DNA from: Rhodothermia bacterium
GTDB lineage: Bacteria > Bacteroidota > Rhodothermia > Rhodothermales > UBA2364
Direction of reading: 5' to 3'
DNA length: 54,390 nucleotides
NCBI GenBank assembly: GCA_017303715.1
Contig: JAFLBZ010000032.1
Coordinates: forward strand, 1 to 54,390
Position 1 is the stretch's first letter; every line of letters begins with the position of its first letter. The notes under the pieces are model-generated. The model saw nothing but the letters and a program-made list of their open reading frames with translations, did no database searches and had not been told where the DNA came from. Positions 1 through 5,400 of the stretch are shown piece after piece. A program made the position numbers and the translations under genes.

Positions 1-295
1 TGCACCCGCGATGCCCATCAGGTTTTGCAAATAGGGTGACACAAAACTGTTATTCACTTTCTTGCAATAGGAATGCTCTTTCGATAGGGCTACTTGCCCG
101 AATCGGGTTTGAAATTCGTTTTTTTTTGTTAGATTCGGGGACATCTCCCAAGTTTTTTTCTAAGACTTCTCGCCCTAATTCTACCCAAAGCTGGTCGAAT
201 TGTTTCTCGTATTCAAAGAACGAATCTAATTCGTTTAAGGCACTTATTTCTTGATAGCGTTGGCGGGCAAGAGCTACAAATTGATCTTCGGTCAT
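1..295 (-). pseudogene. IS transposase N-terminal part, frame broken at an A9 run, cut by window edge
   Basis: The reading frame starts at the ATG at 295 (MTEDQFVALARQ) and encodes a helical region ending in KKR. Nine consecutive A residues (minus strand, about 119-127) follow. The zero frame then gives non-family residues and stops at 50. Shifting by one base, equivalent to eight A, restores an open frame to position 1 reading EFQTRFGQVALSKEH and later SPYLQNLMGIAG. From memory this layout (short charged N-terminus, then a TRFG motif, then SPYLQ) resembles transposases of Bacteroidota insertion sequences, but I cannot name the IS family. The frame may be rescued by slippage on the A run, or the gene may be dead. 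The IS end probably lies between about 296 and 355, next to the last attC-like site. Confidence 0.6.
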
Positions 296-352
296 GGTTC
301 GATACGGTTTATAATGAAAGGAGTCTAACTTCCTCAAAATACAACTTTTTTA

Positions 353-416
353 GAGCAAACGGGAAGTTTTGAAATGCACCCCGTCCAGCCCACTTTTGGC
401 AATACCTTGTTAGCGG
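353..416 (-). other. attC-like site 3 (end of serine-hydrolase cassette)
   Basis: Read on the minus strand, the site begins CCGCTAAC at 416, the exact complement of the GTTAGCGG that opens this cassette at 1535. It continues AAGGTATTGCC and then GGGGTGCA. A possible distal crossover triplet is in GTTTGCTC at 360-353, which would give a site of about 64 bp. The right half pairs poorly with the left, so the distal border is uncertain, and the neighbouring IS may have disturbed it. The segment AAGGTATTGCC nearly repeats the AAGGATATTGCC beside the integrase remnant. Confidence 0.5.
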
Positions 417-432
417 TTCGTTGTTTTTCATT

Positions 433-1500
433 CTATTCAATATTTGGTAATTCAAATGGTTTGTCGAAAAGAATTTTTTCCATAGCTATGATTATTTGTT
501 GTTCTATTGCTAAGTTTTTTGTTTGATTACATAAAGAAACAATTGAATACCCCTCGTCCAAATAAATTGAATTGTATGTAGAATAGCCAGGCCAGCTTCC
601 ACCGTGATAAACTATTTTTCCTACTTCTGAATCATCATGGATAATCCAACCCATCCCGTATTCAACTTTTTCGTTGTGTTGAATTTGAGTATTTGAAAGC
701 ATTATGTCAACTAAACGGCCATCAAGTATGCTGCTATTTAAAATCTCATTATTCCACTTCAGCAAGTCTGATATTGTAGAATTTACTGCTCCGTCACCTT
801 GAATTCCGTCTAAATAGAATACAGCATTATAATCAGAAATATTGTCTGGCAATTCAAAAATACTTTTTGTTTCGTTGAACACGGTTCCAAATGCATAGTT
901 GTTAATTGCTTCCGGGTTTAATCGTCTATTATACACAAATGAATTATGCATATTAAGCGGTTTGAAAATAGTTTCATCAAGAAATTCAGTGAATGAAGTT
1001 CCGCTTATGACTTCAATCAATGATGCTAACAATACATAACCTGTATTTGAGTACTCCCACTTTTCATTAGGTAAAAAATTAATTTTTGGATTTACTTTTA
1101 TGATTAAATCTAAAACATCTTTGTTGCAAGCTATTTTATTTTTGTTCCAGTTTTCATCCAATAAAGAAAAATAATCAGGAAGTCCTGATGTATGATTTAG
1201 CAGATTTCTTGTTGAAATATTTTTGTAGGGAAAATCATGAATCAATGTTCTAATGTCATCGTCTATATTTACTTGGGCAGCTTTAAAAGCAACGAGTGTT
1301 GCATATGCAGTAAAATGTTTAGAAACTGAAGCTAACTCAAAAATTGTATCATAGTTGATTAACTCTTTCTGCCTACTTCCATAGGTGTACCCAAAAGAAC
1401 CTTGATAAATAACTTCATCTTTCCTAGCCACCAAAAGGTTTCCATTGAAAAGATTATTCTTTCTAATGTGATGATCAAGTATTTCAAAATTTTCTTTCAT
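433..1500 (-). CDS. Serine hydrolase, beta-lactamase / penicillin-binding-protein-like (class C family), cassette 3
   Basis: This is a 355-aa protein of the beta-lactamase/transpeptidase-like serine hydrolase family. The catalytic SxxK motif is S58-V-S-K61, the YxN motif is YSN in EKWEYSNTGY near residue 150, and the third motif is HGG in VYHGGSWPG near residue 300. I see no lipobox and no convincing signal peptide, so it may act in the cytoplasm. Family members include esterases, D-aminopeptidases and resistance-related proteins; the substrate cannot be predicted, and true beta-lactamase activity is not implied. The start lies 27 bases after the cassette crossover point and the stop lies about 16 bases before the trailing attC-like site, a typical single-gene cassette layout. 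The gene is AT-rich compared with the chromosomal genes further right. Confidence 0.85.
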   Translation of the reverse strand: MKENFEILDHHIRKNNLFNGNLLVARKDEVIYQGSFGYTYGSRQKELINYDTIFELASVSKHFTAYATLVAFKAAQVNIDDDIRTLIHDFPYKNISTRNLLNHTSGLPDYFSLLDENWNKNKIACNKDVLDLIIKVNPKINFLPNEKWEYSNTGYVLLASLIEVISGTSFTEFLDETIFKPLNMHNSFVYNRRLNPEAINNYAFGTVFNETKSIFELPDNISDYNAVFYLDGIQGDGAVNSTISDLLKWNNEILNSSILDGRLVDIMLSNTQIQHNEKVEYGMGWIIHDDSEVGKIVYHGGSWPGYSTYNSIYLDEGYSIVSLCNQTKNLAIEQQIIIAMEKILFDKPFELPNIE

Positions 1501-1527
1501 TTATTTGATGATTTTGTTCTACAAGGA

Positions 1528-1681
1528 CCGCTAACGTTTTGGCGCTTGGCGCAGTGGTGGAAATCGAAGCACAAAAGTTCAATTTTGTACAAAAGTTCAA
1601 TCGAAGAACTGCCGTTGAACTTACCACGAAACTGTCATACGAAGCAATGCACCCGCCATTACGCCAAACCGCTGTTGTGCG
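1528..1681 (-). other. attC-like site 2 (between 267-aa cassette and serine-hydrolase cassette)
   Basis: The site is about 154 bp. Minus-strand left half: CGCACAAC, then GGTTTGGCG and TAATGGCGGGTGC. Right half: CCACCACTGCGCC, then GCGCCAAAAC and GTTAGCGG. The outer AAC/GTT pair, GTTTGGCG against CGCCAAAAC, and GGTG against CACC form an imperfect inverted repeat, as in integron attC sites with R''/L'' and L'/R' arms. The centre carries a tandem repeat of TTGAACTTTTGT. The next cassette begins immediately after G of the distal GTT. Confidence 0.75.
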
Positions 1682-1688
1682 TTCGTTT

Positions 1689-2492
1689 TTATCTTCTCAG
1701 TCCTATAAATTTCCAAAAGTTAAATTTAGGTTTTTCATTTTGTTTGTTTTGTTCTTGGAAAATTTTTTCCAAGAACAAATATGATTTGATTTCTACTTTT
1801 TGTCTTTCGGCAACTACAATACCATAATGATTGCCAACATTTGAATTTATTCTTTTAAACTTACCATGTGAAAGCATTCTTTCGTTTATTCTTACTCCGT
1901 CTGCATATTCTTCAAAAATTTCAACTGGTAAAGGTTTGTATTTAGGTGTTGATTTAATGAATTTTGAGAAAAAGTAAGGGTCTAAGTCGCCAAATTCTTG
2001 TCCAAATACAAGAGGAACCTCTATTATTTGTCCCGTTTTATTGTTTTCAAAACCACAATGAAAGCCGTGAATAAAATATCTCCAATTTTCAAGCTTTCCA
2101 ATTTGTCTTTTGTCTCGTTTAAGTTCGTTAAACGTTTCCATTGGGAAGTCTTTATTTAATTTCAGGTCAAGTTTGTCAACCAACTTAAATAACAATTCTT
2201 CTCCTAATTGTCTGTAATCCTTTGCACATTGCTCAAAGAAGTCTTTATTATCTTCAATTTCTTTGTCCGTAATAAGTTTAGCAATGTTTATTTCTGGTTC
2301 AATTGTATGTATTCCAATTTGAAAGCCTACAAGTTCATTTTTGAGATTTTGTCCTATTACTTCTCTTTGATTTTGAACTTCTTTTTCAAACACAAGTTTT
2401 ATTGCCCGTTCACGTGGAATGGAACGAATTGTGTCCAGTGTCGGAATTTGTCCAACTGAATTAATTGTTATTATGTCTGTCGTTCTATTCAA
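1689..2492 (-). CDS. Unknown cassette-borne protein, 267 aa
   Basis: I do not recognise this family with certainty. The protein is soluble by inspection, with no signal peptide or membrane segment. The first 120 residues are charged and probably helical. The C-terminal half holds the distinctive stretch HGFHCGFENNKTGQ, followed by EVPLVFGQEFGDLDPYFF and later NVGNHYGIVVAERQ. The HGFHCGF and FGDLDPYFF block reads like a compact beta-rich domain of a type often seen in small hypothetical proteins of Bacteroidota, but I give no function. It is a single-gene cassette: the start is 22 bases inside the crossover point at 2521-2514 and the stop is 8 bases before the trailing site at 1681. No partner gene is present, so it probably acts alone or with a host factor. 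Confidence 0.75.
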   Translation of the reverse strand: MNRTTDIITINSVGQIPTLDTIRSIPRERAIKLVFEKEVQNQREVIGQNLKNELVGFQIGIHTIEPEINIAKLITDKEIEDNKDFFEQCAKDYRQLGEELLFKLVDKLDLKLNKDFPMETFNELKRDKRQIGKLENWRYFIHGFHCGFENNKTGQIIEVPLVFGQEFGDLDPYFFSKFIKSTPKYKPLPVEIFEEYADGVRINERMLSHGKFKRINSNVGNHYGIVVAERQKVEIKSYLFLEKIFQEQNKQNEKPKFNFWKFIGLRR

Positions 2493-2513
2493 TGATGTCG
2501 GTTCTTAAAATGA

Positions 2514-2684
2514 CGCACAACGTTTTGCCGCTTTGCGAAGGCGGGGATTTTCAGCACTAAACTTCATTAGATGCACAAAGATTGAATTTAGCACTTCACT
2601 GTCAACCAAGCACAAATATTGATAGAAGCACTGAACTTCAATTAACCACTTCACCCGCCATTACGCAAAACCCGTGTTGGGTGC
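2514..2684 (-). other. attC-like site 1 (between restriction-modification cassette and 267-aa cassette)
   Basis: The site is about 171 bp. Minus-strand left half: GCACCCAAC, then GGGTTTTGCG, TAATGGCGGGTG. Right half: CCCCGCCTTCGC, then GCGGCAAAAC, GTTGTGCG. GTTTTGC pairs with GCAAAAC and GGCGGG with CCCGCC, with the outer AAC/GTT conserved. The left arm shares the string TAATGGCGGGTG with attC-like site 2. The last codons of the methyltransferase gene, including its stop at 2638, lie inside the left half of this site. Confidence 0.78.
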
Positions 2685-4209
2685 AGTATTTATTTATTAT
2701 TTGGTTTGATGTTTCTAAATCTTGTCTGTCATACGCCTTAATCAAGTTTTCTCTGTCAGCATTACCCAGTCCGTTTATATTAGGGATTTTCAGTTGCCTT
2801 AAAACTTGTGATTGAAATCTTGGAAGTCCGCCATTCATTCTTATTCCAATTTGAGACATTTGGTGTTTAATAAAGTCTGACATTAAAATACTTGCCAAAA
2901 TCTTTAATGAAGAAATATTGTCTGCTGTGATGTAGTATAAATTATGATGAGGATAAAATTTACCATTGTCAATAAAAAGGAATTTATTTCCCGTAAGGTC
3001 AGGCAATAAAAGCTTCGGCTTACTTAATAATTCTGGCTTTATTTTATCAATTGTTTTATACCATTTATTAGGTGTTTTCTTTGCTGTATGCCTTTGCAAT
3101 AGAGTTTGCTTGTTGTCATTGAAATAAGTCTGTAAATGCGGATAATTTTCTAAATCACATAGTTCCCCGTTATCGTATGGATTGATTAAGTAATTTTCTG
3201 TCCATTTGAAAGTGTTATTTTTTAAATCCGTTGATTTAATTATTGGCAACACTCTGTTTTTTTCAATCCCATTAAGCTCGTTTTTGTTTTTAATAAAAAC
3301 TTTATCTGCTCCTGTTGCCACTCCAATACCAATTTCAAATCCTTGCTCTTCAATACCAATCAAGGCAATATGATTTATGTTATAATGCAAGAACAAGTTT
3401 TGCCAAGAGTTATTTTTAGGATTTTCTACTTCTTCAAATTTCAGGCTATTAAAATCAATCTCTTTAGAATTGTCTTCGCAAAACAAAACCTTTTCAGACC
3501 GTTTACTTTTTTGTATTGTCGTAATACAAGGGTATGCTGTTACTGCTTCATCAAAAGGTGAAGACTTTTCGATATTTAGAACTTTTCTCAAATTGTAAAG
3601 AGAAGAAATTTGCTCTCTTAAAATCTTTCCGTATTGGTTATTTAGCCACCTGTTTGAGCAAATAAAAGATAAAAGTCCATTAGGTTTTAATAGCTCTAAT
3701 GAATACTCAAAAAATGGAATATACAGGTCTGCACGATATTTAAAGGTTTTATATTTATTACGATAGAAAGCCTTGTCGTTTTCGGGTATAAGTTCGTGTC
3801 TTATGTAAGGTGGATTACCTACTATACAATCAAATTGATGCTCAAAATGCCAAGTCAGAAAGTTTGTATTTAAACAAATTTGAGAATTTAATTTGAGCCT
3901 TTGATTGGTTAAATTGAAAATTAAACCATCAATAGTCTTGGTCAACTTAACAAAAGCAATTGCGTCTAACTCAACAAAAGTCAAATTAGAAATTACACTA
4001 TCAATGAATGAGAATTGATAATCTAAAGATGACTTGTAAAGACGTTTTATTATTTCTGTTGCAAATGCTCCATTGCCTGATGCTGGCTCTAATATTTTAA
4101 TGGAACTTAGATTTAAATCAGAAGAATAGCCGACTTCATCCAATATAAATTGGACTGCATTCTTATCTGTAAAGACTTCACCGTGATTTCTTCCGTTTTT
4201 ACGTTCCAT
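2638..4209 (-). CDS. Type II N6-adenine DNA methyltransferase of a PaeR7I/XhoI-type system
   Basis: This 523-aa enzyme should methylate adenine in the restriction target so that the partner nuclease spares host DNA. The AdoMet motif I is EPASGNGAF at residues 41-49 and the catalytic motif IV is NPPY at 132-135, followed by IRHE, typical of gamma-class Eco57I/PaeR7I-like N6-adenine methylases. The region after about residue 290 (GVATGADKVF onward, ending in the HHNLYYI and FQSQVLRQL blocks) is the usual target-recognition part. It starts five bases after the endonuclease stop, so the two genes form one operon. The final 15 or so residues (CTQHGFCVMAGEVVN) are encoded by the attC-like site, showing that the gene end was fused to the recombination site. 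Predicted target CTCGAG is an inference from the partner. Confidence 0.88.
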   Translation of the reverse strand: MERKNGRNHGEVFTDKNAVQFILDEVGYSSDLNLSSIKILEPASGNGAFATEIIKRLYKSSLDYQFSFIDSVISNLTFVELDAIAFVKLTKTIDGLIFNLTNQRLKLNSQICLNTNFLTWHFEHQFDCIVGNPPYIRHELIPENDKAFYRNKYKTFKYRADLYIPFFEYSLELLKPNGLLSFICSNRWLNNQYGKILREQISSLYNLRKVLNIEKSSPFDEAVTAYPCITTIQKSKRSEKVLFCEDNSKEIDFNSLKFEEVENPKNNSWQNLFLHYNINHIALIGIEEQGFEIGIGVATGADKVFIKNKNELNGIEKNRVLPIIKSTDLKNNTFKWTENYLINPYDNGELCDLENYPHLQTYFNDNKQTLLQRHTAKKTPNKWYKTIDKIKPELLSKPKLLLPDLTGNKFLFIDNGKFYPHHNLYYITADNISSLKILASILMSDFIKHQMSQIGIRMNGGLPRFQSQVLRQLKIPNINGLGNADRENLIKAYDRQDLETSNQIINKYCTQHGFCVMAGEVVN

Positions 4210-4214
4210 AACTG

Positions 4215-4934
4215 CTATTGGTTAAATTCGTGAAGTTGTCCCGATAATTGTCCAATAAAAGAATGAAGAAAGGCTTCAATTGAAATGCTTTCTTCAACAT
4301 TTCCGTAATCAAAATTGTCAGTTGACCAAAGTAAACAGCATTGAGAATAATGTCTTTCAAGCATAAGTTTTTGGCAAAACAAACGATACCTGTCAATGTA
4401 AGAGGTGTTGTGAAACTCCTTGAATACTTTAAAATATGGCTCAGTTATTCTGACTGGGGATGTTGATTTCGCAGATTTTTCTACTATCATCATATATCCT
4501 AACCAAGGTGCTGATTGATTAGGATAGGCTTTTTCTCTAAAAGCAGTCCACAAGTCAATAGCACTTCCTAATGCTTCTTCTGTCCTATTGTTAAAATTGT
4601 TTCCGAAAGAGCCAACTTGAGACTTGAGTTCAACAACTGCTATGAGCTTTTGTGTTGGTGAAATTATCAGCATATCCCAATCTTTTGTCGGTCTAAAGTA
4701 ACCTGGCAATTGATTTCCTTTTATATAGATGCAGTTTGTTGGTATTCCAATATCAACTGCAACTTGATACAAAAGATTGATAAAGCCATCTAACTGTTTG
4801 CCACCTGTAACCGAACTTCGATTGCCTGTATCTTTGACTTCTCTGTCACCCTGTTCAGCTTTTTGTTTGTTCCTTGTGTCCAAAAAATGCTTGATGGTAG
4901 ATTTTATGAGTTCGTTATATTTTTCTATGTCCAT
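4215..4934 (-). CDS. Type II restriction endonuclease, PaeR7I/XhoI family
   Basis: This 239-aa protein matches the PaeR7I family. The characteristic block runs from GYFRPTKDWDMLII (residues 78-91) to AVVELKSQVGSFGNNFNNRT (99-118), with D87 and E102-x-K104 as the likely PD-(D/E)xK catalytic residues, and continues into EEALGSAIDLWTAFRE. Length is close to the usual size for the family. Family members PaeR7I and XhoI cut CTCGAG; identity of the site here is inferred. The gene is first in the cassette, with its ATG about 84 bases downstream of the crossover GTT. Nuclease-before-methylase order in one transcript is unusual to tolerate on first entry, but it occurs in known systems. Confidence 0.88.
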   Translation of the reverse strand: MDIEKYNELIKSTIKHFLDTRNKQKAEQGDREVKDTGNRSSVTGGKQLDGFINLLYQVAVDIGIPTNCIYIKGNQLPGYFRPTKDWDMLIISPTQKLIAVVELKSQVGSFGNNFNNRTEEALGSAIDLWTAFREKAYPNQSAPWLGYMMIVEKSAKSTSPVRITEPYFKVFKEFHNTSYIDRYRLFCQKLMLERHYSQCCLLWSTDNFDYGNVEESISIEAFLHSFIGQLSGQLHEFNQ

Positions 4935-5009
4935 TTATTGTCTATCTATATTGATGCAAAGTTAAAAATTTACGAGGTTCTTCTGTCGGTTACGGGGTTC
5001 TTTAATATT

Positions 5010-5046
5010 GCACCCAACATCTGTATTGCGGCAATATCCTTATTGT
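5010..5046 (-). other. Possible attI-like site next to integrase remnant
   Basis: On the minus strand the interval between the integrase stop (5047-5049) and the first cassette reads AAGGATATTGCCGCAATAC, then AGAT, then GTTGGGTGC. ATATTGCCGCAATAC contains an interrupted inverted repeat (TATTGC / GCAATA) about 10 bases before the crossover GTT, which suits paired integrase-binding sites. Placement between integrase and first cassette is what an attI should show, but here it follows the 3' end of the integrase, not its 5' end. Confidence 0.5.
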
Positions 5047-5400
5047 CTATAGGTCAGCTAACTGATCCAAGGGGCTTACAAGCTTGGCAATAGCCCGCTC
5101 GGTGATATGGGTATAGACCTCGGTGGTCTTGGTACGCTCATGACACAGAAGGGCTTGTATATACCGCAGTTCCATACCTTGTGCTAACAAATGTGTTGCA
5201 AATGAGTGTCTTAATGTATGTACCGTAGTATAATGATTTACACCAGATTTGCCAACGGCATTTCGCAAGATGTGGTTGCAAATGGCGCAGGTATCCAACA
5301 CAACGTCAAATTCAAAAGCGTAATTGCGGTACATGATCTTTCCGCGAGTACATAGTTTGAAAGATGGAATGCAGGGATATTGCCCCCCCACCAGTCTCAA
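5047..5400 (-). pseudogene. Tyrosine integrase, C-terminal remnant (IntI/XerD-like)
   Basis: Only the C-terminal catalytic part remains: [12 protein letters not shown] gives the H-x-x-R of box [18 protein letters not shown] gives the second His and the nucleophilic Tyr, and the end KLVSPLDQL matches the SPLD tail seen in integron integrases. The DNA-binding domain and the box I Arg are absent. Upstream sequence loses similarity near 5340 and runs into the tRNA terminator at 5484; [10 protein letters not shown] in another frame (about 5330-5360) may be further decayed integrase. Family members normally have LLGH where this has LLCH. The gene is therefore probably inactive. It reads in the same direction as the cassettes. 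Confidence 0.72.

Follow-up and report, generated by a model that had tools for sequence, protein, structure and literature searches.

The window analysed here, a 54,390-nucleotide stretch of DNA that constitutes contig C32 of the 4.35 Mb draft genome of a Rhodothermia bacterium, very probably carries, in decayed form, an integron-like platform for cassettes with an integrase acting without the I2 domain. Read from its sequence, the array works like an integron, with attI, attC, cassette grammar and cassette exchange all recognizable, and fails one defining test, that of the integrase. With moderate confidence, the platform can further be assigned to a separate integron lineage extending across Bacteroidota and onto plasmids, in which a domain-less recombinase would handle attC cassettes and also assemble the rAID arrays of gut bacteria.

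The cassette array in the window

The whole array reads on the minus strand, from an integrase tail (5400-5047) via an insertion point GATGTT (5018), located about 30 nt beyond the tail, into three cassettes. In this order, the latter encode an XhoI-like restriction-modification system, a DUF6896 protein and a serine-beta-lactamase-fold protein. The following features were assigned:

5047..5400, minus strand: C-terminal integrase remnant, 117-aa frame (Phage_integrase and C-terminal TIGR02249 matches)
5016..5055, minus strand: attI CCTATAGACAATAAGGATATTGCCGCAATACAGATGTT, predicted crossover in GATG^TT at 5018/5017; eight genomic copies
2521..5018, minus strand: cassette 1 (restriction-modification), GTTGGGTGC through the end of its own attC; 9 nt complementarity between start and trailing site
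4215..4934, minus strand: XhoI-like restriction endonuclease, 239 aa (PF04555, E 2e-69)
2638..4209, minus strand: Eco57I/TaqI-type adenine methyltransferase, 523 aa (PF07669, E 1.3e-27); 3' end overlaps attC1
2513..2684, minus strand: attC1, 172 nt including R' (covariance model; bottom-strand fold)
1535..2520, minus strand: cassette 2 (GTTGTGCG/CGCACAAC complementarity)
1689..2492, minus strand: DUF6896 protein, 267 aa, TTG start (PF21837, E 1e-12)
1527..1682, minus strand: attC2, 156 nt including R' (covariance model)
409..1534, minus strand: cassette 3, attC cut short; 87% identical to a cassette in congener G002 (contig C65)
433..1500, minus strand: serine beta-lactamase-fold hydrolase, 355 aa (PF00144, E 5.7e-47)
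382..417, minus strand: attC3 remnant, limited to R'' and left arm (start/end complementarity; insertion-sequence end adjoining)
1..381, minus strand: insertion-sequence end (GGGTGCATTTCAAAACTTCCC...), ORF start at 337-50, contig end; copies of the insertion-sequence end elsewhere in the genome

The catalytic motifs of a tyrosine integrase named in the original prediction (HxxR, His, Tyr and SPLD) are present as HTLRH, LLCHE, YTH and SPLD, and the integrase is decayed as proposed, the window holding the C-terminal tail only. Homology of this remnant to the full-length copy on contig C24 of the same genome spans only about 5047-5264 (86% identity to residues 293-368), and its best NCBIfam match is the integron integrase model, again with the C-terminal part only.

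Each of the three cassettes opens with 8-9 nt complementary to the beginning of its own trailing site (3/3): on the minus strand, GTTGGGTGC (5018-5010) pairs with GCACCCAAC (2684-2676), GTTGTGCG (2521-2514) with CGCACAAC (near 1681-1674), and GTTAGCGG (1535-1528) with CCGCTAAC (near 416-409). All three pairs had been noted before, as had two long attC sites with a common arm; this arm, TAATGGCGGGTG, is present in both full sites (1527-1682 and 2513-2684), and the 4.35 Mb genome contains it five times in all. Deviation of the cores from GTTRRRY holds for two of the three sites only, since GTTGGGT fits this consensus. The third site was thought to end at a GTT near 353; instead, the insertion-sequence end GGGTGCATTTCAAAACTTCCC at 381-361 truncates it after its left arm, near the contig end, and the coordinates first given for this last site were therefore wrong, while those of the others were right. 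GGGTGCATTTCAAAACTTCCC also occurs elsewhere in the genome. As two of four exact copies of the insertion sequence fall inside attC, with the rest outside, no specific targeting of attC is claimed.

In computed folds of the sites, the bottom strand of attC1 is more stable than shuffled sequences (z -2.3; 3/200 shuffles equally good); in attC2, the L-box stem forms, but the stability of the whole fold is no better than that of shuffles (z -1.0). The cargo (restriction-modification, DUF6896, hydrolase) agrees with the proposed integron-like array with adaptive genes in a member of the Bacteroidota. In the profile search, the hydrolase of cassette 3 remained below every named beta-lactamase cut-off.

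Copies in the genome and loci across Bacteroidota

The sequence 3' of the integrase gene through GATGTT is common to eight copies of the platform (contigs C24, C19, C6, C2, C55, C32 and two on C4), each of which then continues with different DNA. The seven copies outside the window bear the same insertion site, followed in each by a different first cassette that begins exactly after GATGTT. Such a shared tail with subsequent divergence has the look of an attI with different first cassettes. The platform was copied to at least eight places in the genome, mostly with truncated integrases. The array had been noted as lying outside the classic integron hosts; given that the genome holds eight copies with an attI and that the kind is phylum-wide (see below), it is not an isolated oddity. 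Three of the integrase tails, on C19, C6 and C2 (L015, L016 and L017), have one internal-deletion junction in common and are fused to a repeat region; on C24 and C13, this region terminates in TGAAATGCACCC, an end of the insertion-sequence type found in the window.

The covariance model R1, built from seven sites, detected 26 attC sites in this genome and 19 apiece in two congeners; 37 further genomes of the order yielded no site. Successive sites are joined by complementarity, e.g., in four consecutive links on contig C34, and such runs were observed in G000 and in congener G002. Cassette 3 provides evidence for the suggested cassette mobility: it is 87% identical to a cassette at another place, in the main array of G002, with homology starting at GTTAGCGGTC (GTT) and differing DNA upstream.

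Apart from several truncated copies, the genome harbours one full-length integrase (C24, 368 aa). The C24 protein contains LLGDES, with Asp at the position where relatives have a catalytic-type His (LLG(H)ES), and the genome thus yielded no intact integrase. Of the proposed functional or recently functional integron, the integron-like array stands, while "functional" is unlikely in this genome because its sole full-length integrase has Asp for His; without help in trans, the array in the window probably cannot move. A full integrase beside such an array, which the original prediction had proposed to look for, was identified in G002, where an intact 590-aa enzyme, with N-terminal repeats of weak DUF5710 likeness, adjoins a long array that follows an attI of the type seen across the phylum.

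Members of the integrase family were detected in 88 of 394 Bacteroidota genomes (E <= 1e-60). Of 40 loci, 20 carry the phylum-wide attI motif TATAW...AGTTR 62-126 nt 3' of the integrase, compared to 0.5% of control windows. In the 29 loci that have an attI and are long enough for the test, the 8-mer opening the first cassette recurs downstream as its complement in 25, compared to 2.6-5.8 expected, with at least one match (C4a) looking spurious; the start/end complementarity seen in the window is thus in excess of chance. Loci with such an attI-anchored link are distributed over about ten families and sixteen genera. Sites chosen by complementarity at both ends alone, without any stem criterion, numbered 114 vs 37 in the reversed control, with a length peak at 125-130 nt. 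Their own arms pair over at least 7 bp in 46% of cases, compared to 5.6% when arms are swapped between loci; therefore, the stem is preserved while the letters change. A chain finder (k=8 plus a stem requirement) was dropped due to an excess of two-link chains in reversed controls, and the attI-anchored test and the stem-blind choice of sites were adopted because of this failure.

That palindromic intergenic repeats with coincidental complementarity merely mimic cassettes is conceivable insofar as two-copy 8-mers are common and reversed controls yield some pairs. The attI-anchored test, the stem comparison, GTT-bounded homology and the TATAW...AGTTR motif, however, all speak against it, as does a seven-link chain in Parabacteroides, compared to none in the reversed control. 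At the level of arrays, this explanation is already refuted, with complementarity well above controls in independent loci, and its remaining probability is negligible.

Cassette exchange extends across family borders: G092 and G316 have a 94% identical cassette in common, bordered by GTT...AAC, and G060 and G092 a 99% identical segment ending at GTT. The refutation test set with the original prediction (the same genes in other genomes without the boundary complementarity, or junctions not falling at GTT) thus comes out in favour of the prediction. Five linked cassettes (8-10 nt complementarity, sites of about 60 nt) were identified on Pontibacter kalidii plasmid pls1 (L154); this plasmid is mobilizable, and a platform of such kind can therefore travel. 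In L120 (G186), tandem near-identical cassettes (90-95% alike) have CGTTATA borders. Some family members, e.g., L126, L129, L131 and L144, have no attI or array. The genomes are drafts, and many contigs end at arrays; those of loci such as L116, L143, L130 and L134 stop 100-300 nt past the integrase, in two cases at GTTA, which would be expected of arrays or attI present in several copies per genome. On a plasmid of Chryseobacterium sp. SNU WT5 (L153), an IS110 transposase and a group II intron reverse transcriptase are located 3' of the integrase. IS110 transposases and group II introns are known to target attC in other integrons.

The integrase family and its relation to IntI

An integrase lacking the IntI-specific insertion demands proof because published work calls this insertion necessary for integron function (PMC8138268, PMC4792948). 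Between the GLR and HxxRH motifs, the family has 91-94 residues, compared to 133 in IntI1, two other IntI and a Salinibacter-like IntI. The insertion of about 41 residues (I2 region) is absent, with no intermediates among the 40-odd members measured, one row of which (G316_L150) was mis-measured by the motif search. The finding rests on the full-length sister on C24 and relatives, since the tail in the window begins after the region concerned. Likewise, the match of the IntI model to the family is split in two by a gap at about positions 184-243. The tree unites the four sampled IntI in a clade of their own (100/100), with the family outside; its backbone is without support, and several rows are long. 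Judged by these two criteria, lack of the insertion in every full relative measured and a position outside the clade of the sampled IntI, the integrase family is not canonical IntI. An attI by the integrase, a single cassette entry point, cassette starts complementary to their own R'' and GTT borders were all found. The proposed integron of Bacteroidota type thus holds as to array grammar and not as to the integrase; with this defining feature tested and lacking, the array is not filed as a canonical integron.

The family has a SAM_4 domain, the SPLD tail and a partial TIGR02249 match in common with IntI. Together with the unsupported tree backbone, these features would suit a true IntI descendant that has lost the I2 insertion, i.e., ordinary integrons with a trimmed enzyme. 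Given the tight clade formed by the sampled IntI to the exclusion of the family and the uniform absence of the insertion, such a descent is unlikely, while retaining some weight.

A canonical IntI acting in trans might also have produced the arrays, with the neighbouring domain-less integrase as bystander. A search of 23 genomes with the IntI model revealed 21 to carry the family, and three of these (G044, G280 and G311) have an over-threshold IntI as well. The other 18 of the 21 have none, and in the three genomes with both enzymes the links lie beside the domain-less integrase, while the canonical IntI genes (G044 C5, G280 C141, G311 C1; L177-L179) showed no convincing array next to them. 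As attI moreover lies at a fixed distance 3' of the domain-less integrase, action of IntI in trans is very improbable.

The nearest plasmid relatives outside Bacteroidota, likewise without the insertion, adjoin IS91 transposases, and one from Acinetobacter is 48.9% identical to the G002 enzyme. The family could accordingly serve mainly as helper recombinase of IS91-like elements, with the repeats as transposon debris. Unlike such debris, the arrays obey cassette grammar (attI-anchored links, stem covariation and GTT-bounded homology), and their borders lie at [G/A]^TT without IS91 ends. As sole explanation, the helper role is very improbable; it can coexist with an integron role in one family. 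IS91-associated tyrosine recombinases of the TnpF type resemble the present family in the missing insertion and differ in adjoining an HUH transposase.

For the preferred reading, an integron-like platform with a domain-less integrase, we infer recombination itself from what is known of integrons. The tyrosine integrase is transcribed toward its own attI, into which circular cassettes would insert at [G/A]^TT. Each cassette would carry a hairpin attC, the R'' of which complements the opening bases of that same cassette, since a single circle supplies both halves of one R box. By analogy with IntI, the integrase would excise cassettes as circles and insert them via folded single-stranded (bottom-strand) attC, though without I2, which other contacts, e.g., the repeated N-terminal extension, may possibly replace.

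Relation to rAID clusters and known integrons

In plasmid loci of Parabacteroides distasonis and Bacteroides ovatus, a family integrase precedes a series of co-oriented genes whose annotations name SMI1/KNR4, Tdi1 and other immunity proteins. With immunity being taken from annotation, both loci fit rAID clusters of gut Bacteroidales as published (PMC12247911). The boundaries on both plasmids obey the integron rule with A^TT: seven consecutive links were found in Parabacteroides (none in the reversed control) and four in Bacteroides (a two-link chain in the reversed control), where own start/end pairs of at least 8 nt occur in 10 of 12 genes compared to 3% upon swapping. The same kind of platform appears to build the rAID immunity-gene arrays of human gut bacteria as well. 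The rAID clusters share with the present arrays the tyrosine recombinase family, co-oriented short genes and conserved intergenic motifs, and differ by their immunity cargo and sites of about 46-49 nt. The window itself does not display the rAID pattern (tyrosine recombinase, then co-oriented short immunity genes with intergenic motifs), as its cargo is of the restriction-modification, DUF6896 and hydrolase kinds; the recombinase family and the site rule are common to both. The founding paper on rAID is reportedly that of Ross et al. 2019, in which a resemblance to integrons may already have been pointed out.

Canonical integrons (class 1-3, Vibrio superintegron, Salinibacter) have in common with the platform the [G]^TT crossover, complementarity of R'' and cassette start, co-oriented cargo, attC sites that are imperfect palindromes of about 60-190 nt, an attI next to the integrase, and an integrase with SAM-like and catalytic domains and SPLD tail. 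Besides the absent insertion and the position outside the sampled IntI clade, the platform differs by an integrase transcribed toward attI and by several dispersed copies per genome. Transcription of the integrase toward attI, in cassette direction, is shared by the chromosomal integrons of Treponema, which, however, were described with intI genes (PMC3607928). In its passages on the "integron-like" subgroup, Smyshlyaev et al. 2021 (PMC8138268) note the insertion as not fully conserved and give no arrays for insertion-less members. No prior description of such arrays was found in the open-access literature searched.

Integron surveys identify integrases by the extra domain, and one such survey lists a single complete integron for Bacteroidetes proper, that of Salinibacter ruber M1 (PMC9024848). 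The domain-less kind would escape this criterion, despite the occurrence of the family in 88 of 394 Bacteroidota genomes. If the present reading is true, the I2 domain would not be essential for single-strand cassette recombination, contrary to the current view. Either the need for I2 in this reaction or the form of the preceding step (a paradox discussed in PMC4792948) thereby becomes testable, as does the assembly of the immunity arrays of gut rAID clusters, described as not yet clear (PMC12247911). Overall, the findings point to a large unsurveyed cassette pool in Bacteroidota of soil, water and gut.
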